Source: Candidatus Zhuqueibacterota bacterium (GTDB lineage Bacteria; Zhuqueibacterota; Zhuqueibacteria; Zhuqueibacterales; Zhuqueibacteraceae). From it: a stretch of 64,000 nt of DNA. The DNA is taken from assembly GCA_022616415.1 (NCBI GenBank), contig JAKEEU010000194.1, forward strand, positions 1-64,000, written 5' to 3'. Both the position numbers and the translations under genes were made by a program. Below the pieces are notes generated by a model, which saw only the letters and a program-made list of their open reading frames with translations, ran no database searches and was not told where the DNA came from. Shown piece by piece: positions 1,654 to 19,126 of the stretch; position 1 is the stretch's first letter; each line of letters starts with the position of its first letter.

Positions 1654-4600
1654 TCAATATGGCAGGTCAGGACAGGCAGGCTCGTAGGGTATGTCCGCAC
1701 CGATGAATCGGTTCCTTTCATCTGACGTCAGGTTGCGTCTGGTCTTTTCACAAACCATATTAGCCAAAATCTCGGTGCGGGTAATCCAAATGCGGATCGT
1801 CCCGTCATCGCTTCCTGAGATGAGGCTTTGGCCATCCGGGCTAAATGCCACCGAATTTACTGCCCTCTCGTGGCCACGCAGAATAATCGGCCGGGCATCT
1901 TGATGGAAAAAATCCCAAAGTCGAACGGTTTGGTCCGCGCTACCCGATGCAAGTGTCCGGCCATCGGCGTTAAAGGCCACCGATAAAACACCCGCATCAT
2001 GGCCATCCAGTACGATCGGGCTCGCGTCTGGCTCATGCAAATCCCAAAGTCGGATGGTTTTGTCGGCGCTTGCGGAGGCCAGCAGACGAGAGTCCGGGCT
2101 GAATGCCACTGCATGGACGCCACTGTTGTGGTCACCGAGAGACGTGGGATCATTAGGAAATTGGCGCGAATCCCACAACAGCACACTTCCATCGCCGCGC
2201 CCCGCAGCCATCATTTCGCCGTTTGGACTGAATGCCACCGACTCAAAACCGAACTCGCGCCCATAGAAGATTTTTGGACTTTCGGTTGGCTGATACAAAT
2301 CCCAAAGTCGCACGGTCCAGTCGAGACTGCCGGAAGCCAACCACTGTCCATTCGGGCTAAACGCCACAGAGAGCACGGCAGATTCGTGCCCTCGCAAAAC
2401 TTTCGGTTCGGCATTGGGCGTGTTCAAATCCCATACTCGTATGGTATGATCAGCACTGCTCGATGCTAATTTCCGGCCATCCAGGCTGAACGTTACTGAC
2501 TCGACCCCAAAATCATGTTCGCGCAGAATCCGATCGGATTGATCCAATCGCCATAGCCGCACTGTGGCGTCGTAACTGCCGGAGACGAGGGCACGGTCAT
2601 CAGAATTGAATGCAACAGATTTGACCGGGCCGGTATGGCCGTGCAATTCAGTCGGGATCGCTGCCGGCCGGCGCAAATCCCAAAGGCGAATCGTGGCGTC
2701 GGAGCTGCCGGAGGCCAGCATGGCGCCATCCGGACTGAATGCAACGCTCCTCACCCAACCTTTGTGGCCGCGTAGAACGACGAACGCGGAGTCAGGTTGA
2801 TTGATATTCCATAAGCGTATCGTTCTGTCCTCGCTCGCTGAGGCAAGTTGCTGGCCGTCCAAACTGAATGCGACCGACAAGATCCGGCCTTGGTGGCCAT
2901 GCAAAATTTTTGGAACCGCATTTGGCCGTCCCAGATCAAATAGACGCATGTCCGCATCGCCGCTGCCAATGGCCAACTTCTGCCCATCCGGACTTAACGC
3001 CAAATTTTTGATCTCGCGCAAGTGTTGATAAAAAATCTTTGGCGGAGCGGTTGGATCATGCCAATCCCAGAAACATACAGTTCCATCGGCGCTGCCCGAC
3101 GCCAGGATTTTTCCATCCGGAGAGAATCTTATTGCATTGATCTCACTTTTGTAGTTGAGTTGAATGCTGCCGCCATGATCGAGTTGGCCGAGGTTCCAGA
3201 GCCGAATCGTTCCGTCAGCGCTGCCCGAGGCGAGAATTTTGCCGTTCGGGCTGAACGCGACGGCTCTCACTTCATTCGTATGGCCTTGCAGGAGCATGGC
3301 CTCAAGGTTGGGTTGATCCGGATTCCAAAGCCGCACGATGCCATCCGCGCTGCCGGCCGCCAAAATTTGGCCATTCGGGCTGAACGCGACAGACCTGATG
3401 GCGCTGAATTGGCCGCGCAGAACGGCAGGGGCGCGATGGAGTTGGCGCAAATCCCACAGTCGCACCGTGCCGTCCTCGCTGCCGGAGGCGAGAAACCGGC
3501 CATTTGGACTGAACGCCACGCTCCAAACCCAATCCGCATGGCCGGCCAACACGGCGCTGAAATAACGAATGCTCAACACTTCGCGCAAGGCCGCATCGAC
3601 TTGCGGCAAAGCATGAAGCTGATGCCGCTGATCGAAAAGATAAGCTTGACGCGCCAGCAATGCGCCGCGTTCGTGCTGCCCTTGGCGGATTTGGCGTGTG
3701 GCTTCGGCAACAAGTGTTTGCACGATGGAAAACCAGCGCAAGCGATCCGACTTCGATTTTTGGAAATAGGCAAATGTGGCTGCTCCCAACGCGGCGAGAA
3801 ACAAAACCGCGAACGCCGTTAAAAAAAGCCGTAGCCGTTGCAATTGGCGTTGGCGCGCCACTTCCTTATCGTGCTCGGCTATGACGATGGCCGCGCGGCT
3901 GGTCCGCACCAACTCGCGCAGCGCGGCATCGTAACCGAGATCCACGGCATCCGGACAGGTGAGCCACCGTTCGGCCTCGCGCAATTCAATTTCGTCGAGC
4001 AAGCCGCCGCTGCCGCTGCCAAGGCGCATCCATTCCGTTGCCTTGGTTTCCAACCGCCGTCGCGTTTGCTCGGCCTCGCGCCGCTCCGCAAGCCAACCAT
4101 TGAGGGTGGGCCAACTGTTAATGAGCACTTCGTGAGCCATGTCCACTTTCCGGCCACCTTCCCCTTCTTCGCCGCTGAGGGTGAGCAAGCGATTGTCCGT
4201 CAAGTGGCGCAAGGTCCGTTCAAACAACAGCGGATCATCGTCAGTGGAGCGGAGAGCAGCGACCGGTTGTTGGCGGCGCGTATCCGCGCGGCCCTCGCCA
4301 AATTGCACCAAGCGCAGGAAGATACGCCGGGCAATGCCGCGCTGATCTTTATGAAGTTGGGCCAGCGTGGCATCGGCTTTGATAGTGAGCGCGACGGCGA
4401 GGCCGCTCCGTGTACCCTCGCCTATATGGTCGTAAACGTAGCGAGGAATAAAACGCCGCTGTTTCTTTTCCCAGAGCAGCGCCATGGTCTCCTGCACCAA
4501 AGGCAGCACGCCGGGCTGCTCATCGGCTTCCACATCAGCGAGCAAACGCTCTAACAGTCCGATTTCGAGATAGACGCCAAGATTCTCCGCGGGTTTGGCA

Positions 4601-5613
4601 ATGGCATCCAGCAAAGCCTCGCCAGCCAGTGGCGCGATCTCAAGCCGTTCGCTGGAGGCCACGGGCCAAAGCGCGGTGCGCATCAAATCGTTGTGGAAAA
4701 AATCGGAGCGCATGGTGAGCACGAGAAAGCAGTTTTCCACTTGGCGCAGCGCTTTGATGGCGGCAATGAAAGCGGTCTCAACCGGCTTGGGATTTTGGGT
4801 GAACAATTCCTCGAACTGGTCGATGATGAGCAGAAGATGTTTTGCCGAAAAGTTTTGCGTCAGTATTGTTTTACCAAGCGCCTCGGGATTGGAAACGCTC
4901 GCGAGAGGGATGTTCAAGGCTTGCGCGAGCGCTGACATCGGGGCGTTGCCGGGGCGCAGAGTTTTGATCAGCCACTCTCCCGGCTGTTGCTGGTGGAGGC
5001 CGGGAATGAGGCCCGCAAAGACAAGCGAGGATTTGCCAGAACCGGAAGGGCCAATGACGAAGAGATAGTTGTGATGGCGCAGCCGGCGGCGCAACATTTC
5101 GATCTCTTGCTCGCGGCCGAAGAAATGGCGCGCGTCGTGCTCGGAAAAAGGCACCATACCGGGATAAGGGCAGGGAATGCGCTCTGGCTCCGGCTCCGGT
5201 TGGTCGAGCAAGTGGCGGAGACGCGCCATCTCGTTTTCCCAATTGGCCTCGCCGGTGCAATCTAAATGAACGAGGAATTCAACGTGCAGCGGCAGCTCAC
5301 AGGGTTGCAAGAGAAGAGGGATCAGGCGATCACGCCGTTCCGTAATGCTCGCGTGAGCAACAAGCTGCTCGCCGAAAATGGACCACTCGTCGTTCACAAA
5401 GGCGGGACTGAAAACCAACAAGGTGTAACGGCTGGTGGTAACGGCGCGCTCAAACTCTTCAACTATCGGCGCGCCGGGACGAAAGTCTTGCCGGGTGATG
5501 AGACGTTCAGAAGTCAAACCGAGCGCAGGCAGGAGATAGCCGCGAATCCATTCCTGGTCCGCATCGCTGCTGAGAATGAAGAGATCGTGCTTGTGCTCGG
5601 TTGGTTCGATCAT
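1654..5613 (-). CDS. TIR - nSTAND NTPase - transmembrane helix - 14x WD40 protein
   Basis: N-terminal TIR-like region (HDLFILSSDADQEW...LLVFSPAFVNDEW); PYPGMVPFSEHDARHFFGREQE and Walker A GPSGSGKSS; hydrophobic FLTAFAVLFLAALGAATFAYF; 14 WD40 repeats counted in the translation. Confidence 0.9.
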   Translation of the reverse strand: MIEPTEHKHDLFILSSDADQEWIRGYLLPALGLTSERLITRQDFRPGAPIVEEFERAVTTSRYTLLVFSPAFVNDEWSIFGEQLVAHASITERRDRLIPLLLQPCELPLHVEFLVHLDCTGEANWENEMARLRHLLDQPEPEPERIPCPYPGMVPFSEHDARHFFGREQEIEMLRRRLRHHNYLFVIGPSGSGKSSLVFAGLIPGLHQQQPGEWLIKTLRPGNAPMSALAQALNIPLASVSNPEALGKTILTQNFSAKHLLLIIDQFEELFTQNPKPVETAFIAAIKALRQVENCFLVLTMRSDFFHNDLMRTALWPVASSERLEIAPLAGEALLDAIAKPAENLGVYLEIGLLERLLADVEADEQPGVLPLVQETMALLWEKKQRRFIPRYVYDHIGEGTRSGLAVALTIKADATLAQLHKDQRGIARRIFLRLVQFGEGRADTRRQQPVAALRSTDDDPLLFERTLRHLTDNRLLTLSGEEGEGGRKVDMAHEVLINSWPTLNGWLAERREAEQTRRRLETKATEWMRLGSGSGGLLDEIELREAERWLTCPDAVDLGYDAALRELVRTSRAAIVIAEHDKEVARQRQLQRLRLFLTAFAVLFLAALGAATFAYFQKSKSDRLRWFSIVQTLVAEATRQIRQGQHERGALLARQAYLFDQRHQLHALPQVDAALREVLSIRYFSAVLAGHADWVWSVAFSPNGRFLASGSEDGTVRLWDLRQLHRAPAVLRGQFSAIRSVAFSPNGQILAAGSADGIVRLWNPDQPNLEAMLLQGHTNEVRAVAFSPNGKILASGSADGTIRLWNLGQLDHGGSIQLNYKSEINAIRFSPDGKILASGSADGTVCFWDWHDPTAPPKIFYQHLREIKNLALSPDGQKLAIGSGDADMRLFDLGRPNAVPKILHGHQGRILSVAFSLDGQQLASASEDRTIRLWNINQPDSAFVVLRGHKGWVRSVAFSPDGAMLASGSSDATIRLWDLRRPAAIPTELHGHTGPVKSVAFNSDDRALVSGSYDATVRLWRLDQSDRILREHDFGVESVTFSLDGRKLASSSADHTIRVWDLNTPNAEPKVLRGHESAVLSVAFSPNGQWLASGSLDWTVRLWDLYQPTESPKIFYGREFGFESVAFSPNGEMMAAGRGDGSVLLWDSRQFPNDPTSLGDHNSGVHAVAFSPDSRLLASASADKTIRLWDLHEPDASPIVLDGHDAGVLSVAFNADGRTLASGSADQTVRLWDFFHQDARPIILRGHERAVNSVAFSPDGQSLISGSDDGTIRIWITRTEILANMVCEKTRRNLTSDERNRFIGADIPYEPACPDLPY

Positions 5614-5706: not shown

Positions 5707-8346
5707 TTATTGCGCTAAAAAGCTGATTCTCACGCCGCCAACGATGATGAAGTCCCCCTTGGTCGAGGGAGTGGCTTTATCATGAAATACATAACCCATT
5801 CCACCATGCAGCCAGATATTTGATAGGATCCGCCCTCCCATCAAATTCCCGATGTTGAGCGCGCCGGGAGAAAGCGCAATCCATTGCCGGTCAAGATCTC
5901 CGCTGGCAGAAATCATGGGGAATGCCACAACTCCCGAGGCCCCGCTTTCGCCGTAATTGAATAACGTCACCCCAACGCTGCCCGTGCCTTTTGAAACCGA
6001 TGAAGTGGAGTTTAAATCCACTCCGAAATTGATGTTAAAGTCTTTGTTAACGCCTGGTTTGGGAGGAATATCTTCGACCGTGGTCGTATCATACCGGAAA
6101 CGCTCAAAGAATGCCGTGGCAACTCCAAGACGGCCGGGAGCTTCGTACTCAACGAAGACCGAGCCGCGGTACAAGCCCTTGTTCTTGAAGACGTCGACTT
6201 CAGCTTTCCAGAGGGAGGAGGAGTCTACCGGTTGCAGCATGAAACACTGATCCGGTTGCATGCTTAGATTCGGCTGATCTGGTTGACTAGTCGTCTGCGG
6301 TGGTTCGACTAATAGCGTAACCCCGCGAATTGGGTATTTATTAGGATTATCCAATGCCACGAAAACAGTTCTCTCCGGCCCAAGTACAGGACTTCCAACG
6401 ATACTTCCCAAAACCTCCCTTGCCCCCGCTGCTAATTGTGTCGGGCTACGTTTGTACCCAAGGATTGATGCGCTTGTAATGTTCCCAAAAGTCTCAATTG
6501 TAGCATCAGTCTCAAAAGAGCCAATCATATCAGAGTTTATCTCCGGGTCTCCGGATTTAAGTCCCCAGCCAATCTGGAATGCGCAAAGGACGTTATAGTT
6601 GGCCTCCATTGCTGAAAGGAAATGAGAGGAGAAAGTTGTCAGTCCGCAAAGTGTGGAGTAGTTTTCTGTCTTGTTGGCGGCCACATTCTGCAGGCTCGAA
6701 ATCGCGTGAGCATTAAGCGTAGATCCTGATGAAGGGGTGAAATCACTATTTGTAAGCTGCATGGTGTTTAACAAGTCGCCAGAATTATCCCCCGCGTGTA
6801 TAAAGATAATTCCCCGGTTAAATCCCCTATTGTTAATCCCCGTATAACGGCTCCAAAGACGTTTATTAGAATCAATAGAATCAGGTTGATTCAACGCCGC
6901 AGTGTAGGTAGTTTCGATTTGTGCTGCTGACAGATTCAACGTCCCTCCGCCCGCGGCAAATTGTCCTGACGCAAGTGTGTTCCCAATCCAAAAGAAAAGC
7001 AGCCCGCAGTGATTCTCAAAGTCAGTCTGATTGGCTGATCCAAGATCTCTCCTGAGAAAATCGTTGATTGCAGTCCTGAGTTGCGCTAGAGTTTTTGTAG
7101 CGCCGGAACCGTCATAGAGAGTTTCCAACAAAATATCCTGCTGCCGGAATCCGCGGCTATTGATAAGAACATCGCGCACACGATTTGCCATACTGAGGTG
7201 ATGGTTGTAATCGGGACTATGGCCAACGACAATCACGGCATATCCTGCAGGTTGGGTGGATGAAAGAGTGAAACTGGAACCTGAAGGTCCTGGCGTGCAG
7301 TTGGCAGGCGGCGGTGCAAGAAAAATTGATGCCGGGGCGGTACTCGCGTACAAAAGCTGTTTTGAGTTTTTATCCGAGCTGCCGTAAGAGTCGAGAATAA
7401 CTTTTGTGGTTTCAGCCGTAGCCTCGATTTGATAGATGCCGGACGGTCCTGCTTGAAAATCGGCGCTGAATTTTCCACTGCTACTATCGGGTAAAACAGT
7501 GATGGCGTCCTTCTTGCGGTCAGGAGCAGTAACACTAATTGTGATTTTCGCGCCACGCGCATAATCTGGCGTAATCTGACCCAATACCCGTAGCGTCTTC
7601 GGATCCTTCCGATAACGGAAACTATCCTCGGCTGAAACCGTCAGGCGGAAGGGGCTGCGTTTCACCTCAAAAAAAATAGGCTCGGCAATCACCGAATCAG
7701 GACCACTGGTGGCGTTTTGCCTTTGCCAAACAGCGACGGCTTGCCACCGCCCATGTTCCGAGAAGACGTGATTGATATGGTACAAACCTTTCTCATCGCC
7801 TTTGGTTTTTAGGATGGTCTTTCTGTGACTGGGTGATATTAAATTGACCTTGATTGAAGCAGCAGGTTTTGCCGGGATAGCCCTGCCTTCCATACTTTGT
7901 GGAAGGTTCTTATCGAGCTGACCACTCGGCGGAACATCCACGACAAGCTTGGGGCTTTGCTCTGTCGCCTCGACAATATTAAGCCAGGCCTGCAAAGTAA
8001 CGGTTGTATCGGCGCCGGAGGCGATTATGAAGAGCCGGTGCCTGCCGATGTGCTTCTCATTTCTGGCGCTCACTTTCAGGCGAACGAGTACCGGCGTGGT
8101 AACTTGAGTCGCTTGGTCCTTCGGAAATTGAATACTCAGGACGGGATCGGCTTCTGATTGCGCACGAAGATTTACCGGTATCGCCTTATTCCCTTTTGCA
8201 AATACCTCGACCCAATAATACGCCGTATCTCGAGCGGTGATGGTGCGGGAAAAATGGTCAATGGACAGACGTAGATCCGCCCCTTCTACACCATTTCGAA
8301 GGCAAAACAGCAGCGCGAGGCTAACCCATCTTAAACTTATTCTCAT
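5707..8346 (-). CDS. Secreted multidomain protein with an apparently inactive caspase/C13-like domain
   Basis: N-terminal signal-like segment; GYAVIVVGHSPDYNHH...GFRQQDI...LLFFWIGNT...GIIFIHAGDNSGDLL resembles a C13/caspase-hemoglobinase fold with altered catalytic positions. Confidence 0.6.
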   Translation of the reverse strand: MRISLRWVSLALLFCLRNGVEGADLRLSIDHFSRTITARDTAYYWVEVFAKGNKAIPVNLRAQSEADPVLSIQFPKDQATQVTTPVLVRLKVSARNEKHIGRHRLFIIASGADTTVTLQAWLNIVEATEQSPKLVVDVPPSGQLDKNLPQSMEGRAIPAKPAASIKVNLISPSHRKTILKTKGDEKGLYHINHVFSEHGRWQAVAVWQRQNATSGPDSVIAEPIFFEVKRSPFRLTVSAEDSFRYRKDPKTLRVLGQITPDYARGAKITISVTAPDRKKDAITVLPDSSSGKFSADFQAGPSGIYQIEATAETTKVILDSYGSSDKNSKQLLYASTAPASIFLAPPPANCTPGPSGSSFTLSSTQPAGYAVIVVGHSPDYNHHLSMANRVRDVLINSRGFRQQDILLETLYDGSGATKTLAQLRTAINDFLRRDLGSANQTDFENHCGLLFFWIGNTLASGQFAAGGGTLNLSAAQIETTYTAALNQPDSIDSNKRLWSRYTGINNRGFNRGIIFIHAGDNSGDLLNTMQLTNSDFTPSSGSTLNAHAISSLQNVAANKTENYSTLCGLTTFSSHFLSAMEANYNVLCAFQIGWGLKSGDPEINSDMIGSFETDATIETFGNITSASILGYKRSPTQLAAGAREVLGSIVGSPVLGPERTVFVALDNPNKYPIRGVTLLVEPPQTTSQPDQPNLSMQPDQCFMLQPVDSSSLWKAEVDVFKNKGLYRGSVFVEYEAPGRLGVATAFFERFRYDTTTVEDIPPKPGVNKDFNINFGVDLNSTSSVSKGTGSVGVTLFNYGESGASGVVAFPMISASGDLDRQWIALSPGALNIGNLMGGRILSNIWLHGGMGYVFHDKATPSTKGDFIIVGGVRISFLAQ

Positions 8347-8356
8347 TTTACATCTC

Positions 8357-9781
8357 CTAGTTGAATTTACAAACCCGAATTCTATCGGTTAAAAGCATAT
8401 AGATGCGACCTTCCTGCGCATTCATGCGGGCCAGGAAGCTGGCATCACGTGGACTGTCTACAAATGGAAGTTCCAGATACCTTTGCAATTTCCAATCGGC
8501 GAAGCTGTAGTAAAGCAAAAAAGCGGGATTGTCGCCGGGATCGCCCGTGCAGGCTGCCACTGCTAATACTCCCGGATGCCTATTTTGTGGATCAACAAAG
8601 CCCGTCACGCTTCTCGGCGAGAGCGGGCTTTCCATCCCAGGAATCCCAACAGATATTTCAATTGTTCCGTAACTGAGTGGATCAATTATGACGATCGTGC
8701 CTTTTGCGGTAGTTACATACAGTTTGGAATCATGCCCAACCCATAAATCTTTTGGTCTATCATTTAACTGGATTTCTTGCAGGCGTGATTCAGTGCTGAT
8801 ATTGAAAATCGATATGGAGTTTGAGCCTTCATTGGCACAAAACAAGCGCCTGGCATCCGGCAACACAGCCAATCGTCGGGGGTTCAGTCCGGTCCGCATA
8901 TTGGTTCGTGCGGGATCGCATTTTCCCACTCTGAATTTGAAAATCGCCTGGGAATTGCCGTCAGCGATATAGACTGCGTCCCTGCTTGGGTCTGCTACCA
9001 CTGCCTGGGGTTTGGCAATGGCGTCTGTTTCGCATGCAGCAATGAGAAAGCTGCCGGTCCACAAGAATACTTGAACTCGACCAAACAAGGCTGATGAGCA
9101 TACATAAATATAAGCTGAATCATTTGGGGCCGTGCAGACTACAGCCATGTCGCTTGTTGGATTGTATATTCTATGAAAATCAATCTCCTCATCGTTCGCA
9201 TTAAATACTCTTAGAAACCCTCCGGCCGCCACGAATTTGGTTTTCCCACAGAAGCCTATTGCCGTTGGCAACGAAAAAGAGACCGGGGCGTTAATATTAG
9301 TTTCTCCAAGGTAGTTACAATCTAAAGGCAAGGGATACGCCAGCGCCGAATCTGGCCATGAAAGATCAGACCAGGAGTTGTCCCGCATGGCGGTCACTCG
9401 ATAGGTATAAAGTTTATCACCAACGATCCCTGTTGTCGTGGTTGAATCAATCCAAACCTCCCGCCGAGGAGGAGCAGGATAAATGGTATCAATCTTAGTG
9501 CTATTGAGGGCTTGCCGAAAGAGAACAAAACGATCTACATCGATTCGCTGATCACTTTCGACAGGATAAGTCGGCCACTTCCATTTGAGTGTAATCTTGC
9601 CATAATCGGTCACGGCGTCGAACTCAAAAGGATCATGTTTTTTCGAGTTCTCAGAGTCAAACGGATTGTCGTGGCCGGTGCATCCCAGCATAGCCCAAAT
9701 CAACATCGCCGCCGGCGCCTGGCGCCAGCTTTGACGCGAGCACCGGCTCATCGGAATTTGCAAAACCAAGCTTCTCATCAC
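8357..9781 (-). CDS. Putative lipoprotein with YncE/NHL-like beta-propeller
   Basis: Lipobox-like MLGC; repeats such as VVADPSRDAVYIADGNSQAIFKF, LAVLPDARRLFCANEGSNSISIFN. Confidence 0.6.
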   Translation of the reverse strand: MMRSLVLQIPMSRCSRQSWRQAPAAMLIWAMLGCTGHDNPFDSENSKKHDPFEFDAVTDYGKITLKWKWPTYPVESDQRIDVDRFVLFRQALNSTKIDTIYPAPPRREVWIDSTTTTGIVGDKLYTYRVTAMRDNSWSDLSWPDSALAYPLPLDCNYLGETNINAPVSFSLPTAIGFCGKTKFVAAGGFLRVFNANDEEIDFHRIYNPTSDMAVVCTAPNDSAYIYVCSSALFGRVQVFLWTGSFLIAACETDAIAKPQAVVADPSRDAVYIADGNSQAIFKFRVGKCDPARTNMRTGLNPRRLAVLPDARRLFCANEGSNSISIFNISTESRLQEIQLNDRPKDLWVGHDSKLYVTTAKGTIVIIDPLSYGTIEISVGIPGMESPLSPRSVTGFVDPQNRHPGVLAVAACTGDPGDNPAFLLYYSFADWKLQRYLELPFVDSPRDASFLARMNAQEGRIYMLLTDRIRVCKFN

Positions 9782-11160
9782 TTCACCTCTTTCTCAAACA
9801 CCGGCTTTCTGGGATTGATGAAAGCCGCATTGGTCCAAAAGCCCAGGCTGGCGACGGCGACTAGCGCGGCGGAATTTCGCAACATCTCGTTACGGTGCAG
9901 GCGGCTATAGTTATTATCCGCAGCGCGACTGGTCAACGCTTGCTCGTAGTCACTCTTACCGTTGCCAGCGGCTTGCCACATCAGCACGGCCGGAAGAATG
10001 CCCGCCACGGTTGTGCGCAGGCTCCATTTCCGCCACGCGTAAGGCACTCCTTCAAATCGCGCCTGATATCCGAAGTGTCGCGCGATGTGTACGACCGCGC
10101 TATCGGCCAGGCTTTTCAGGTCACGCGCCTGCAAGCGTTTGCTCAACACCACCCGCTCGCCGGGATTGAGCCGCAGCGAGAGATCGAGAACAAAGAGCTT
10201 GCCCTCCTTGCTCCCGCTGCCGCGAACGATATAGGACGGCAATTTGTAAAGCGCATCGATGTCGGGGGGGTCGCCGGGACGCGGCTGCCATTGGGCACTG
10301 AACGCCGCATAGCGTTTGGTGCGAATCTCCGGACAAAGCGCGATGAAACTTTCAAGATGCTCGAGAAACTGCTTCGACCATTTCGGCTGTTTTTTCGCCG
10401 GCTCGAAATCCAGCGGTGACAGCGCCAAAATTTGATTCTCTGGCGTAGGCGGATCGAGATGACAGTGGTCTTTTAAAAATTGGCGCACCTGCAACGATTG
10501 CAGCACACGATTCGTGTGGCTTTGGCCGGTCACCAGTTTTTCGGTGATAACACCGGCAACGATGCCGCGATCGTTCAATACCGGGCTGCCGGATTCGCCG
10601 CCCTGCACTGCCCTGGCGGTAATATCGAACGCGATGTTGTAATACGGATTCTGGCTAGACACAATAATCCCGCGCGTGATTTGAAGTTCAAGCTTGCCCG
10701 CGGAATAGCCGAGGGCATGCACAGGCGTACCATCGAATTGCTGCCGCTTGCTTACCGGTAGAACACGAAAATTCGAGATACTGTTGCGGTCGATATATAG
10801 AACCGCGAGATCGTCGCCTTCCCGGCGGTCGAAACAAACCTTGTTTTTGGCCACCCGAATCGTGTCGAGTGTGCCATAAGGAATAACCCAGATGTGCGGC
10901 GCCAGCCTCCATCCAACGTTTGAGTCGGCATAGGCAACTACATGGCGATTGGTGAGCAGCGCCAGTTGCGTTTTCGTCGAATCGATGATAAAGCCGGTGC
11001 CTTCGTCACCGACGCCTTTCCCTGCCGCTTGCCAGGAGACGCGAATCTTGACAACCGCTGGCAGCGCTTGCTCAAAAAGGCTTTGTTGCTCTTGCGCGCC
11101 GGCGAGGGAGGCCAAACACAAAAGCGCCAACCCAACCGCCAGCCAAACTTTAGGCTTCAT
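9778..11160 (-). CDS. Secreted trypsin-like serine protease with C-terminal membrane segments
   Basis: Signal peptide; LLTNRHVV (His), EGDDLAVLYID (Asp), GGESGSPVL (Ser); C-terminal hydrophobic segments. Confidence 0.85.
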   Translation of the reverse strand: MKPKVWLAVGLALLCLASLAGAQEQQSLFEQALPAVVKIRVSWQAAGKGVGDEGTGFIIDSTKTQLALLTNRHVVAYADSNVGWRLAPHIWVIPYGTLDTIRVAKNKVCFDRREGDDLAVLYIDRNSISNFRVLPVSKRQQFDGTPVHALGYSAGKLELQITRGIIVSSQNPYYNIAFDITARAVQGGESGSPVLNDRGIVAGVITEKLVTGQSHTNRVLQSLQVRQFLKDHCHLDPPTPENQILALSPLDFEPAKKQPKWSKQFLEHLESFIALCPEIRTKRYAAFSAQWQPRPGDPPDIDALYKLPSYIVRGSGSKEGKLFVLDLSLRLNPGERVVLSKRLQARDLKSLADSAVVHIARHFGYQARFEGVPYAWRKWSLRTTVAGILPAVLMWQAAGNGKSDYEQALTSRAADNNYSRLHRNEMLRNSAALVAVASLGFWTNAAFINPRKPVFEKEVK

Positions 11161-12304
11161 GGTGAACTCCTTTGAAATATCGCCCGGTTCGTATGCGCTC
11201 CCTCAACGTAACGTACAAAATGAAAATCTGAGCCAAAACTCCAATCAACAGTCCAATCTTCGCTTCCAAATGCGAGAGCGCCGAGGATGTCTGATTCTCT
11301 AATTTTTTTCCAACACCGGCGTAGAAAGTGCTCGTTTCCCCGCGCAGCGTGGCGTTCAATCGACCGGGGCGCAAAGCGCGGAGTTTGCGCAGCTCGAAAC
11401 CGCTGAGGTCATTTTGACGAATGTGAACGAGACCTTGCAATTCCGGTATCTTTTTGCCGTCCACGCTGAAAATGACACACTCCACTTCTGATGCCGTAGC
11501 ATGGCCATTCGTAGCTTGTTGCGTGTCATAGAAGTTGACCTGCTCGACGCGCATGGGAAGCTCGAGCAGATCTTCGTTCACGGGATCCAGATTCAGCAAG
11601 TCATAAAAGATCAGCGCCCGGCTGCCGCAGCCATTGATTGCAGCGTTCCTTGTGTCGGCGCGCGGCCGGAATCCCAAGCAATCATGCGACAGCGCAATGG
11701 TTTGGGCGGCATGGCGAGCTTGCAACTGGTACTCCTGGATTTGAACTCGGATGGTATCGCTCAACATTGCAAGCCGCAATTGCGTTTGCCCGCCGCTTAT
11801 CTCCAAGTTGAATTTGTGGTGCAATTGGCCGCGAGGCCACAGCGCGATTTCGTTGGCGCCGGTTACCGTCAAATCGGATATCTGCAGTCTCGAGCTTAAA
11901 AATACAAGCTGAGCATCCGGCCCGGGGTTCGGCGTGAAAAGCAGGTCGGTCGAGCCGATCTCCTGCACACCGGCCAATGGCATCGCCGGCCCGCATTCAA
12001 TTGGCCAGAAAGCTTTTTCCACCTGAATGGAGAAAGCGTCCAACCCCCGAATGCCCAACAAAGAAATCGGCGCCGCCTTAAGCAGCGACCGGCCCGGTAA
12101 TTGGGCCCTGGCAGGACGGAACGCCAATTTTTCTGTGGCAATCTCCAAATCCACCACCGCCGGTGGATGATAAAAGTGGAGCACGATGGCGGCTACAACC
12201 ACGATGCCGGTGAGGAAATAAAACGCCTTCATCAAAACCAGCCGCTGGCTTGATTTGACCACGGCTTTGGCGGGCGCTGGCGGATTTTTTAGTTTTTGGG
12301 GCAT
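11150..12304 (-). CDS. Membrane protein of unknown function
   Basis: N-terminal and C-terminal hydrophobic helices; overlaps neighbouring genes on both sides. Confidence 0.6.
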   Translation of the reverse strand: MPQKLKNPPAPAKAVVKSSQRLVLMKAFYFLTGIVVVAAIVLHFYHPPAVVDLEIATEKLAFRPARAQLPGRSLLKAAPISLLGIRGLDAFSIQVEKAFWPIECGPAMPLAGVQEIGSTDLLFTPNPGPDAQLVFLSSRLQISDLTVTGANEIALWPRGQLHHKFNLEISGGQTQLRLAMLSDTIRVQIQEYQLQARHAAQTIALSHDCLGFRPRADTRNAAINGCGSRALIFYDLLNLDPVNEDLLELPMRVEQVNFYDTQQATNGHATASEVECVIFSVDGKKIPELQGLVHIRQNDLSGFELRKLRALRPGRLNATLRGETSTFYAGVGKKLENQTSSALSHLEAKIGLLIGVLAQIFILYVTLRERIRTGRYFKGVHHEA

Positions 12305-13062
12305 GGCGTGAAAATGGGCTTATGATAAAAAGCATACGGCCTGAATAAGTCAAGCTCTCCTCCGGACTTCAAAAATATCTTGCCTTTTACAATCAACCTA
12401 TAAGTTCCTTCCGGCGCAGGCTTCTCGCCGATCCGGCCATCCCATGAAATGATGAAAGGCGCGTTACCGGGATAAAACTGCTTGGGACTGATGAATACAC
12501 TTTCGTTCCGATCCTCCGGTTGAATCACTTGCAAGATCGAATAAATGAGCTCGATATCCTGATTCGGCATAAACTTGAACTCGTAATGACTCAACGTGTC
12601 CGGCGTGTTGCCATTCCAAGCCACCGCCGAGATATGTTGTATACCATTGACATCCTGGCGGCCTTTGCCGACGACTGACCACGCTTCGACCCGTACTGGC
12701 TGCAAGGTCGTGTTGAGCAGACCTATGCACTGAAAAAAGCCAATAGACCATCCACTGGCGCCAGGTTTCAGCGCGTACAGCAATTTCTCTTGCCGGATTT
12801 CGACAGCAAGCGGATAGCCATCCGGAACAAAGAATTGGACAAAGCTGGTATCTTTATGCTTCGGCTGGCTGCCCTTCTTCAAGCTCGCGTGAAACGCCAA
12901 AATCTCGACATCGAGGCCGGCAACTTCCTGACGCGGCATAACCAGCTTGTACTGCCCTTTCGGGTCAACGTACAAAACCGCGTCGCCTTGCGCCTGCGCA
13001 TAAGCCATTGCCGGAAGGGATATGGCGGCGATCAACATGGCGGCAAGTTTTCTCGCTTTCAT
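12289..13062 (-). CDS. Secreted protein of unknown function with FlgD-like C-terminal segment
   Basis: Signal peptide MKARKLAAMLIAAISLPAMAYAQ; PFIISWDGRIGEKPAPEGTYRLIVKGK. Confidence 0.6.
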   Translation of the reverse strand: MKARKLAAMLIAAISLPAMAYAQAQGDAVLYVDPKGQYKLVMPRQEVAGLDVEILAFHASLKKGSQPKHKDTSFVQFFVPDGYPLAVEIRQEKLLYALKPGASGWSIGFFQCIGLLNTTLQPVRVEAWSVVGKGRQDVNGIQHISAVAWNGNTPDTLSHYEFKFMPNQDIELIYSILQVIQPEDRNESVFISPKQFYPGNAPFIISWDGRIGEKPAPEGTYRLIVKGKIFLKSGGELDLFRPYAFYHKPIFTPCPKN

Positions 13063-13296: not shown

Positions 13297-14526
13297 TTAT
13301 CGGCGTGGGAGTGGCCCTTGCAAGGCTTGCACGAGACGGTCGAGCTGGCGTTCGGCGCGGAGGGGATGAGTGAGGTAGATGGTGGTGAGCATATTCAGTC
13401 GCGCCGGCAGCCGTTCTTCATCTATCGGCGCGATCTTCACGGGCAGCAAACGATACGTCCCTTCCTGGATGCTCATCGTCTGCCCCAAAACATTTTCAAA
13501 GTTTGTCCAATTGTCTGCCAGATAATCTTCCGACAGGATAATTATTGTGCGCTTGGACTGTTTGATGCCCCGCTCGATATTTACCACTCTGGCGACGCCG
13601 GGTTCTTCGACCTCGCCAGAGATAGCAAGCCGTAAACCGGCGCTTTGCAAATGTGGCACCAGTGCTTTCCACACATAGATGGTGTCGGCGCTCTTGTCCA
13701 CATAACTGATGTAAGCATCAAACCGGAAGCCGTCCTCGTCTTTCGGCACAACGCCATGTTGCCCGCCCCGGTAGAGCGCGATGGGAAAGTTGTTTTCCAG
13801 GTCGGCCTTGAAAACAGGATGCTGGTTGGGTTGGTCGCCGGTGACACGAGGTTGAAGATACTCAAAGAGATCGAAGATGCGAATGAAGCCGTCATCGCTC
13901 GCAGCGCCGCCACGCAGCCCATTCAGCAGGTGTTGGGTAAACAAACCATACTCGGCGCCGGGCAGCACATAGGAATACTCGTCACTGCGCGACGAGGCCA
14001 AAATCACGCGGCCCCGGCCGGACTTGAGCGCCTCGTAATAGTTTTCCGATAAACCGGGTTTGATCGTGGGCGCCGACAAATTTTTGGGTTGACCGATGCC
14101 GCCGGCGTGGCAACAGTCGAACACTACGACGGCTTGACAAGCTGGAATGTCGCGAAGAGCTGTGGTAAATTCAGCGCCAGAAATGGCGGTTTGCGCAACG
14201 CTGTGGTCGGAGCTATCGGTGACGTCAACGGGCAGCAAGTATTCATCCGCGTAGGCGCCGGTTTCTATGCGGCCGCCGTGGCCGGAAAAGTAAAGGAAAA
14301 CCGTTGTCTCTGCATTGCTGCGTTGTGCAAGATTGGCAAGGGCTTGGCGCCAAGCTGCCAGCGTCGCTTGGCCGTCAGAAAGCAACTGTACGTTTTCCGC
14401 GTGATAGCCACAGTACAGCGGATCGATCAACAAATTGTAGATGGCCCGCGCGTCTTGCGTTTGCGGCAGCGTTCGAATGTGCCGGTAATCAGCGATGCCA
14501 ATCACCAGGGCGTGAGCGTTGTCCAT
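13297..14526 (-). CDS. Caspase-like (C14) peptidase fused to C-terminal TIR domain
   Basis: ALVIGIADYRHI, FLYFSGHG (His), VVVFDCCHAGG (Cys); C-terminal FRFDAYISYVDKS...IIILSEDYLADNWTNFE TIR. Confidence 0.9.
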   Translation of the reverse strand: MDNAHALVIGIADYRHIRTLPQTQDARAIYNLLIDPLYCGYHAENVQLLSDGQATLAAWRQALANLAQRSNAETTVFLYFSGHGGRIETGAYADEYLLPVDVTDSSDHSVAQTAISGAEFTTALRDIPACQAVVVFDCCHAGGIGQPKNLSAPTIKPGLSENYYEALKSGRGRVILASSRSDEYSYVLPGAEYGLFTQHLLNGLRGGAASDDGFIRIFDLFEYLQPRVTGDQPNQHPVFKADLENNFPIALYRGGQHGVVPKDEDGFRFDAYISYVDKSADTIYVWKALVPHLQSAGLRLAISGEVEEPGVARVVNIERGIKQSKRTIIILSEDYLADNWTNFENVLGQTMSIQEGTYRLLPVKIAPIDEERLPARLNMLTTIYLTHPLRAERQLDRLVQALQGPLPRR

Positions 14527-15937: not shown

Positions 15938-18900
15938 TTATTTACGTCTCTCCACCACGGCGTATACCATCGGAATGACCACCAACGTCAGCAGCGTGCC
16001 GATGGTCAAGCCGCCGATCACCGTCACCGCCAGGGGCGTGCGCAACTCCGCGCCTTCGCCGAAGCCGAGCGCCATCGGCAGCAAGCCGAGAATCGTCGTC
16101 AGCGTGGTCATAAAAATCGGCCGCATGCGAATCTGACCGGCTTGCTTGATGGCCTCGAGCTTTGACACGCCCTCTTTGCGCAGTTGATTAATGTAGTCGA
16201 TCAACACAATGGCGTTGTTGACGACGATGCCGGCGAGCATGATGACGCCGATGAGCACGACGACGCTGATGACGGTGCGGGTCACCAGCAGTGTGATGAT
16301 CACACCAATGAGGCCGAAGGGAATCGTGAACATGATGACGAACGGGTGCACGAGCGACTCGAATTGGCTGGCCATAACGAGATAAACAAGAAAGACCGCC
16401 AATCCAATCGCCAGCTTCATGCTGTCGAACGATGTCGCCATTTCGCGCTGCTGGCCGCCTATGCGGACAAGAAAATCCGGCGGCAGTTGAAGCTGGTCGA
16501 TTTGTTTTTGAATATCCGCGGTGACGCTGCCGAGATCGCGGCCGGAAAGATTGGCAGTCACCAAAGCCACGCGCTCCTGATCGATGCGGCGTATCTCGCT
16601 GGGGCCGCGCTCGAGACGAACTTCCGCGATGGAAGCCAGTGGCACCGGCACGTCGCTCGCCGGATTGACGATCAGACGGCGCAGGTCATTGACGTTGCGG
16701 CGCTGCTCTTCGCTGGCGCGCACGCGAATGTCGATCTTGCGATCCTGCCGGGTGAATTCGGTTGCGACCTCGCCTTGCACTTTATTGCGCACCACACTGC
16801 CGATGCCGTTGATGTCCAAGCCCAACGCCGCCACGCGCCGGCGATTGAAAACGATTTGCACTTCCGGGTTGCCGCCTTCGGTCGAGGCCTTCACGTCTTT
16901 CAAGCCGGGAATCTCGCGCATTTGTTGCGCCAATTCCAACGAAACGCGTTCAAGCTCGGTCAGATTGTAGCCGCGAACTTCGACCTCGATCGGTGTTTTA
17001 AAACTGAAGAGGGTTGGCCGAGAAAATTTAAATTCCATGCCGGGCAAATGATTCAACTCCACGCGCAGGCGATCCATCACGCTCTGCTCGCGCTCACCGA
17101 TGTTGCCGGGTTTCAATTTCACGTGAACTTGCCCGAGATTCTCGCGCTCTTCGCTGGAGGAAAATCCGGCTTGCTCCGAAGCGCCGGCAATGGTGTAAAC
17201 CGTCTCGGTTTCCGGCAGTTGGCTCACCACTGCGGCCACGGCTTGCAAAGCCCTGTCCGTTGCTTCAACCGGTGAGCCGACCGGCAGCTTGGTGTCGATA
17301 TAAAATTCTCCCTGGCTCATTTCCGGAACCAGCTCGGTGCCGACAAAAGAAACGCCGCCGAGCGACAGCAAGAACAAAAACAACGTCGCGGCCAGCAAGC
17401 GCCCGCGCCACGGCATGACGGCATCGATCAGCTTGGGATAACGTGATTGCAATTTTCCGAAACCGGATTCGAAGGCGCGATACACCGGCGCAAAAATGAA
17501 ATTTATGCCCTGGCCGATTTTTGCGAGCAACCATCGCACCCCGCTTAGCAAAGTTGCCGCAACGTTGACGAGACCAGCGCCAATCTTCTGCCGCCATTTG
17601 CCGAAACCGGAAGCCGGTACGGTGGCATCACTTGTCGCACTCGTGGTCTCGTCGAGGCGAATCGCAATGCTCGACAGCATTGGAATCAGCGTCAGCGCCA
17701 CCAGCAAAGAGGCCATCAATGAAAACGTCACGGTCAAAGCCTGGTCGTTGAAAAGCTGGCCGGCGATGCCTTCCACAAAAATGATCGGCAAAAAAACACA
17801 GACCGTGGTCAACGTCGAGGCCGTCACAGCAACGCCGACTTCGCTGGCGCCTTTGTCCGAGGCCGCAGCCGGCGACAATCCCTGCTTGCGATAGCGGTCG
17901 ATCGCTTCCAGCACGACGATGGAGTTATCGACCAACATGCCGACGCCCAGCGCCAGCCCGCCGAGCGACATGATGTTGAGCGTCACGCCGGAGACGTACA
18001 TCAAAAAGAAGGTGACGATGACCGAGATGGGGATGGAGAGGCTGATGATCACCGTGCTTTTGAGATTGCGCAGAAACAGCCACAGCACCAGAACGGCCAA
18101 AATGCCGCCGTAAATCGCGGTGTTCAACACTTCGTCGACGGATTGCTGAATGAATTCCGATTGGTCGGCGATGATAACCAGCTTGTCCTTGACGCCGAAT
18201 TTCTCCCACTCAGCGCGGATGGCGTCCAATTTTTCTTTGACGCGGCGCGCGACCATGACGGTGTTTTGATCCGCTTCCTTGTAAATGGCGATCTCAACAC
18301 TTTCCAAATTATTGACGCGAGTGATGAGGTTGCGCTCTTTGTGGCTTTTGTGGACTTTGGCCACGTCGCGCAGCACCACCGGCACGTTGTTGCGCAGGCC
18401 GACGACGATGTCGTTGATTTCGTCGACGGTTTGAAATTCATTCAGCGTGCGGACGATGAACTCGGCTTCGCCCTCTTTCAACGTGCCGCCGGTGAGGTTG
18501 ACGTTCTCCTGCCCGAGGCGCGTGGTGACTTGCGTGATGGGAATGCCCAGCGAGGCCAGTTTGGCCGCATCCAGCTCGACCTGGATTTCCTCTTCGAGGC
18601 CGCCGGACACTTGTACGGCAGCGACGCCATCGAGACTTTCGAGTTCTTGTTTGATTCTTTCTTCGGCGACGAGGCGAAGCGCAATCAAGTTCTCTTCGCC
18701 GTAGAGCGCGATGCGCATGATCGGGTCGAGCGAGGGATCGAAACGCAACACGACCGGCACTTCGGCGTCGCGCGGCAGCGCCAACATGTCGAGCTTTTCG
18801 CGAATGTCGAGCGAGGCGAAATCCATGTTGGTGTTCCACTCAAATTCGATGATGACGTCGGAAACGCCGGGGCGCGAGATCGAGCTGGTGCGCACGACGC

Positions 18901-19126
18901 CAGAGACGACGCCGACGGACTCTTCGATGGGCTTGGAAACGAGATTTTCCACTTCGCCGGGCGCGGTGCCGGGATACCCGGTGCGGACGGTCAAAGTCGG
19001 ATAAGAAATATCCGGCAAAAGATTGATGGGCAAACGATCGAAAGCCACCCAGCCGAAGATGACCGAGGCCAAAAATATCATGGTGATGGTCACGGGCCGG
19101 GCGATGGAGAATTTGACGAGTTTCAT
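15938..19126 (-). CDS. RND efflux transporter permease (HAE1/AcrB family)
   Basis: Full-length RND translation with GGLALGVGMLVDNSIVVLEAI and AGIVVNNAIVLIDYINQLR. Confidence 0.95.
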   Translation of the reverse strand: MKLVKFSIARPVTITMIFLASVIFGWVAFDRLPINLLPDISYPTLTVRTGYPGTAPGEVENLVSKPIEESVGVVSGVVRTSSISRPGVSDVIIEFEWNTNMDFASLDIREKLDMLALPRDAEVPVVLRFDPSLDPIMRIALYGEENLIALRLVAEERIKQELESLDGVAAVQVSGGLEEEIQVELDAAKLASLGIPITQVTTRLGQENVNLTGGTLKEGEAEFIVRTLNEFQTVDEINDIVVGLRNNVPVVLRDVAKVHKSHKERNLITRVNNLESVEIAIYKEADQNTVMVARRVKEKLDAIRAEWEKFGVKDKLVIIADQSEFIQQSVDEVLNTAIYGGILAVLVLWLFLRNLKSTVIISLSIPISVIVTFFLMYVSGVTLNIMSLGGLALGVGMLVDNSIVVLEAIDRYRKQGLSPAAASDKGASEVGVAVTASTLTTVCVFLPIIFVEGIAGQLFNDQALTVTFSLMASLLVALTLIPMLSSIAIRLDETTSATSDATVPASGFGKWRQKIGAGLVNVAATLLSGVRWLLAKIGQGINFIFAPVYRAFESGFGKLQSRYPKLIDAVMPWRGRLLAATLFLFLLSLGGVSFVGTELVPEMSQGEFYIDTKLPVGSPVEATDRALQAVAAVVSQLPETETVYTIAGASEQAGFSSSEERENLGQVHVKLKPGNIGEREQSVMDRLRVELNHLPGMEFKFSRPTLFSFKTPIEVEVRGYNLTELERVSLELAQQMREIPGLKDVKASTEGGNPEVQIVFNRRRVAALGLDINGIGSVVRNKVQGEVATEFTRQDRKIDIRVRASEEQRRNVNDLRRLIVNPASDVPVPLASIAEVRLERGPSEIRRIDQERVALVTANLSGRDLGSVTADIQKQIDQLQLPPDFLVRIGGQQREMATSFDSMKLAIGLAVFLVYLVMASQFESLVHPFVIMFTIPFGLIGVIITLLVTRTVISVVVLIGVIMLAGIVVNNAIVLIDYINQLRKEGVSKLEAIKQAGQIRMRPIFMTTLTTILGLLPMALGFGEGAELRTPLAVTVIGGLTIGTLLTLVVIPMVYAVVERRK

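Follow-up and report, generated by a model that had tools for sequence, protein, structure and literature searches.

Pseudo-orthocaspases are known in bacteria, where they make up 8.6% of bacterial orthocaspases (PMC6426788). These C14-type proteins, of which SyOC of Synechocystis is an example, belong to clan CD, have lost the His-Cys dyad, are presumably inactive and have been kept in evolution (PMC6426788, PMC7889975). The same features probably recur in a predicted 879-residue protein encoded in the window analyzed here, a stretch of 64,000 nucleotides of contig JAKEEU010000194.1 from a Candidatus Zhuqueibacterota bacterium. There are, however, clear differences: pseudo-orthocaspases carry a C14 p20 domain, most often with Tyr and Ser in the positions of the dyad, whereas the 879-residue protein has Asn or Asp in the first position and Asp in the second, and is nearer to C13-like proteins. 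Unlike the pseudo-orthocaspases, it is also predicted to be secreted, contains Ig-like regions and is encoded in an envelope operon. The best profile match of its central domain is to peptidase family C13 (legumain, GPI8; PF01650) and the C13-like proteins of KSB1, but, in contrast to the peptidases of this family, it is not recognized by PF01650 and is missing both catalytic residues.

Inactive caspase and trypsin domains have also been described in bacterial conflict systems (PMC7159879). In the vWA-MoxR systems, the caspase-superfamily domains found in the effector position are mostly inactive, and trypsin-like peptidases are used as well (PMC7159879), a likeness to the operon described below. 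Those systems are intracellular and NTPase-based (PMC7159879), whereas the five conserved genes of our operon encode an envelope set in which neither Pfam nor PADLOC recognized a vWA, MoxR, VMAP/iSTAND, NTPase or effector-associated domain. In humans, the pseudo-caspase cFLIP(L) shows that a dead homologue of a caspase can be the partner of a live protease (PMC7586951); the partner of cFLIP is a caspase, a protease of its own kind, whereas the live, conserved neighbor of the pseudo-C13 protein is a serine protease. PMC7159879, PMC6426788 and PMC7586951 thus provide precedents in which inactive caspase-like domains serve in roles other than catalysis. Bacterial pseudo-caspases are already known, but the secreted C13-like form in an envelope operon is new.

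A clan CD-like domain in a predicted secreted protein

The pseudo-C13/caspase-like protein is encoded by an ORF with an ATG start at 5707..8346 on the minus strand, exactly where a sequence-only reading of this DNA had placed it, and all the strings quoted in that reading (GYAVIVVG, ANRVRDVLINSRGFRQQDILLETLYDGSGATKTLAQLRTAINDFL, LLFFWIGNT, LNLSAAQIETTY and GIIFIHAGDNSGDLL) were found in its translation. From the N to the C terminus, the protein is predicted to consist of a signal peptide, an Ig-like region, the clan CD-like domain, another Ig-like region and a C-terminal beta-rich domain. Its N terminus is signal-peptide-like but weaker, falling below a simple hydropathy cut-off, and that of the only ortholog, which is 39% identical, is strongly hydrophobic; the protein is predicted to be secreted. 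The full-length structural model had low confidence, with strand-rich parts on both sides of a central alpha/beta part, and was too poor for domain assignment beyond these strand-rich ends; Foldseek searches with this model matched mostly FN3 and Ig-like proteins.

The central domain (residues about 366-600; 6547..7251, minus strand) was not identified by any model in Pfam, NCBIfam, PHROGs or PADLOC. Specifically, neither PF01650 (C13) nor PF00656 (C14 p20) matched the 879-residue protein or its ortholog, and a search of PDB sequences, including a profile search, returned no match to the protein. The assignment to clan CD therefore rests on remote homology. We compared a two-sequence alignment of the domain, from the window protein and its ortholog, with seven C13-like proteins from the same phylum gathered via PF01650, using hhalign. 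This comparison yielded a score of 38.5 (E 7.6e-5), which was not reached by any of 150 column shuffles (best 24.6) or by the reversed control (15.4). The score against the C14 caspases of the phylum was lower than that against the C13-like set, at 29.6, with a shuffled maximum of 22.4. The confident stretch of the alignment, beta1 to beta3, takes in the His position, whereas no significant score was obtained when the C-terminal half of the domain was aligned alone.

The AlphaFold model of the domain, built from the two-sequence alignment, was poor (mean pLDDT 36.7). The alternation of strands and helices in this low-confidence model follows the order expected for clan CD, and its top PDB matches in Foldseek were mostly caspases and plant metacaspases (best E 4e-3), with lumazine synthases also among the matches. 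The C13/caspase-like pattern noted in the sequence-only reading is borne out by the profile scores and by the Foldseek matches, the latter from a low-confidence model. Altogether, we consider it likely, although not proven, that the domain is akin to clan CD. The lack of a library model that recognizes it, the low confidence of the structural model, the presence of lumazine synthases among the matches and the insignificant score of the C-terminal half would also fit some other Rossmann-like three-layer fold with a superficial likeness to clan CD. We regard such a fold as unlikely, given that the profile score is well above those of the 150 shuffles, that caspases and metacaspases dominate the top Foldseek matches and that the remnants of the catalytic motifs come after the correct strands.

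The five-gene operon and its flanking genes

The pseudo-C13 gene is present in two of the 82 genomes of the phylum, the window's own and the KSB1 MAG OFTM356 (JAJDAF010000055.1). Scanning the genome contigs with the 879-residue protein alone returned nothing, and an alignment-based scan of these contigs recovered the OFTM356 relative only. The protein had no tblastn match in plasmids, and an approximate query typical of the C13 family had no match in plasmids or in the phylum, an uninformative outcome. On a viral contig (L003), a short part of a phage protein matched by chance and was dismissed. The trypsin and lipoprotein profiles also had weak matches at other places in the phylum, which lie in unrelated loci.

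Both genomes encode, in the same order and orientation, p257, p384, a trypsin-like protease, a propeller lipoprotein and the pseudo-C13 protein, with identities between the window and OFTM356 of 29%, 25%, 30%, 38% and 39%, respectively. In the window, the five ORFs, all on the minus strand, overlap or lie 10 bp apart. The proteins p257 (12289..13062) and p384 (11150..12304) have orthologs in OFTM356 and belong to no known family; p257 starts with a signal-peptide-like sequence and is a predicted secreted protein, and p384 has a hydrophobic segment near either end, with the middle part probably periplasmic. The third gene (9778..11160) encodes a trypsin-like protease (S1, Trypsin_2; Pfam E 1.6e-16), predicted to be secreted from its signal-peptide-like N terminus, and the catalytic triad His73, Asp117 and Ser190 is intact in the alignment of the window protein and its ortholog; this serine protease is the only recognizable active enzyme of the operon. 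The fourth protein (8357..9781), likewise conserved in OFTM356, combines an FN3-like domain with a beta-propeller; its hydrophobic stretch is followed by a conserved Cys and then TGHDNPFD, and it is probably a lipoprotein, with a non-canonical lipobox. Together with the predicted secretion of the pseudo-C13 protein, these features are the envelope signs of the operon. Promoter and terminator scans of the locus gave results at chance level.

Two further genes, which we treat as context rather than core, flank the operon on the same strand. Upstream, at a distance of 235 bp from the tight operon and 3 bp behind a metallophosphoesterase gene, lies the gene for a caspase-TIR protein (13297..14526), in which the intact catalytic motifs FSGHG and DCCHAGG are present as previously read. 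Sequence predictions detected no signal peptide and no membrane segment in this protein, which is predicted to be cytoplasmic and so should be in a different compartment from the pseudo-C13 protein. Its caspase domain resembles the EACC1-associated type NF047832, with a score below the cut-off. Downstream of the pseudo-C13 gene, after 93 bp, begins the gene for a TIR-nSTAND1-WD40 protein (1654..5613), in which a single strong hydrophobic segment (residues 591-618) precedes 14 WD40 repeats, which might therefore be extracytoplasmic. The TIR domains of the two flanking proteins are related (29% identity, E 2e-6), suggesting these proteins as partners; for the caspase-TIR, the TIR-nSTAND-WD40 protein is a more plausible partner than the pseudo-C13 protein.

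Neither the caspase-TIR gene nor the TIR-nSTAND-WD40 gene is present at the orthologous locus of OFTM356, and the TIR-nSTAND part has no match in the entire OFTM356 genome. Because both genes are missing from that locus, we define the conserved unit as the five-gene envelope operon. The shared strand of all these genes, the 93 bp spacing, the membrane segment before the WD40 repeats and the similarity of the two TIR domains would be consistent with the operon being the sensing front end of the TIR-nSTAND-WD40 and caspase-TIR proteins, such that all would form a single defense or cell-death island in this genome; the absence of both flanking genes from the OFTM356 locus, and of any TIR-nSTAND match from that genome, makes such an arrangement quite improbable. 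It would be similarly speculative, and a long shot, to envisage a pseudo-legumain-like receptor that, with the propeller lipoprotein and the double-anchored p384, would control the trypsin-like protease and, in this genome, signal to the intracellular TIR-STAND and caspase-TIR proteins via the membrane-spanning WD40 protein, in which case the five genes would constitute an envelope system so far undescribed. In this genome, where the operon lies between the caspase-TIR and TIR-STAND genes, a connection with cell-death systems is unproven but open to testing.

Catalytic positions and a proposed role

In active C13 peptidases, the catalytic His comes after beta3 and the Cys after beta4; the two copies of the pseudo-C13 protein instead have Asn456 or Asp in the first position and Asp520 or Asp in the second. 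By alignment, the His position of the window protein is occupied by Asn456 (codon 6979..6981, minus strand; IGNT for xGHG) and the Cys position by Asp520 (codon 6787..6789, minus strand; AGDNSG for DACxSG), which agrees with the earlier proposal that both catalytic positions are dead. The ortholog, the sole relative available for comparison, has IGDA at the His site and AGDGSG at the Cys site, that is, Asp and Asp, so that both substitutions are non-catalytic there as well. The placement of the Cys position, which is based on the register of the motif (the full-length alignment sets AGDNSG beneath DACFSG), the predicted order of secondary structure elements and the Foldseek matches, is less firm than that of the His position.

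As aligned, neither copy can use the standard His-Cys dyad. The dead state appears to be conserved because the ortholog lacks both residues too, although this conservation is seen across two sequences, which are too few for dating or for a test of selection. Around the two sites, I-G-x and A-G-D-x-S-G are unchanged between copies that share 37-39% identity. The identity of the domain (38%) is similar to that of the remainder of the protein, indicating that it decays no faster than the sequence around it. Because the standard dyad is missing, the 879-residue protein is a putative pseudo-peptidase.

Could the domain still be an enzyme that employs other residues, for example, Asp520, His547, Ser522 or Cys567? 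Asp520, Ser522, His547, Ser550, Ser551 and Cys567 are invariant in both sequences, but invariance across two sequences is weak evidence for an alternative active site, and the fact that the two copies differ at the His position, with Asn456 in the window protein and Asp in the ortholog, argues against it. We know of no clan CD peptidase with such a set of residues, which also counts against this option, and we consider it very improbable.

We favor, with somewhat more confidence than doubt, an interpretation of the 879-residue protein as a secreted pseudo-peptidase, the dead clan CD-like domain of which would act as a binding or regulatory module in an envelope complex encoded by the five-gene operon, with the trypsin-like protease as the catalytic member. 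Under this pseudo-peptidase model, the five products would assemble in the cell envelope, and, in the simplest reading, the trypsin-like protease would do the cutting. The pseudo-C13 domain would either recognize the substrate or hold or regulate the protease, and the C-terminal beta-rich domain might anchor the protein at the outer membrane. The sequence-only reading had instead suggested that the protein could be a substrate or decoy of the adjacent active caspase-TIR or could regulate it. Of this proposal, the secreted, dead clan CD domain is supported, but the functional link is most improbable: the two genes share a strand and a 9-kb stretch, and both domains are assigned to clan CD, yet the predicted compartments differ, the caspase-TIR gene is outside the tight operon, and at the orthologous locus it is missing while the five envelope genes are kept. 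Dead caspases are known as intracellular regulators; if the pseudo-peptidase model is correct, the secreted C13-like case, conserved with a trypsin-like protease, would carry the concept over to extracytoplasmic proteolysis and supply a small, testable set of genes in a poorly studied phylum.

Origin of the contig and other C13-like proteins of the phylum

The RND pump encoded in the window (15938-19126) is about 70% identical to that of another family (f2) of the order, with a best identity of about 52% within the genus to which the genome is assigned. In the RND-pump loci of relatives, the genes behind the pumps differ, and there is no clean empty site. The contamination of the source assembly is 8%, and the contig may come from another member of the order, that is, it may be a contaminant or transferred; the doubtful origin of the contig is without effect on the conclusions at the gene level.

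A TPR-CHAT-like protein (L025, 4907-8170), assigned by reading, is encoded beside sigma-factor-like genes at a distance of some 5 kb from the orthologous operon. The phylum has another pseudo-C13 family as well (L006, L007, L010, L011, L014 and L020), the members of which match PF01650; it keeps GHG but has Ser or Ala in the Cys position, with motifs such as NTSSASG, NTASASG, NTTAASG and similar ones at this site. In another locus (L004; G009:C32, minus strand), a KSB1 C13 protein with an intact DACFSG motif is fused to a C-terminal outer-membrane barrel domain, a C-terminal domain arrangement that can be likened to that of the 879-residue protein.
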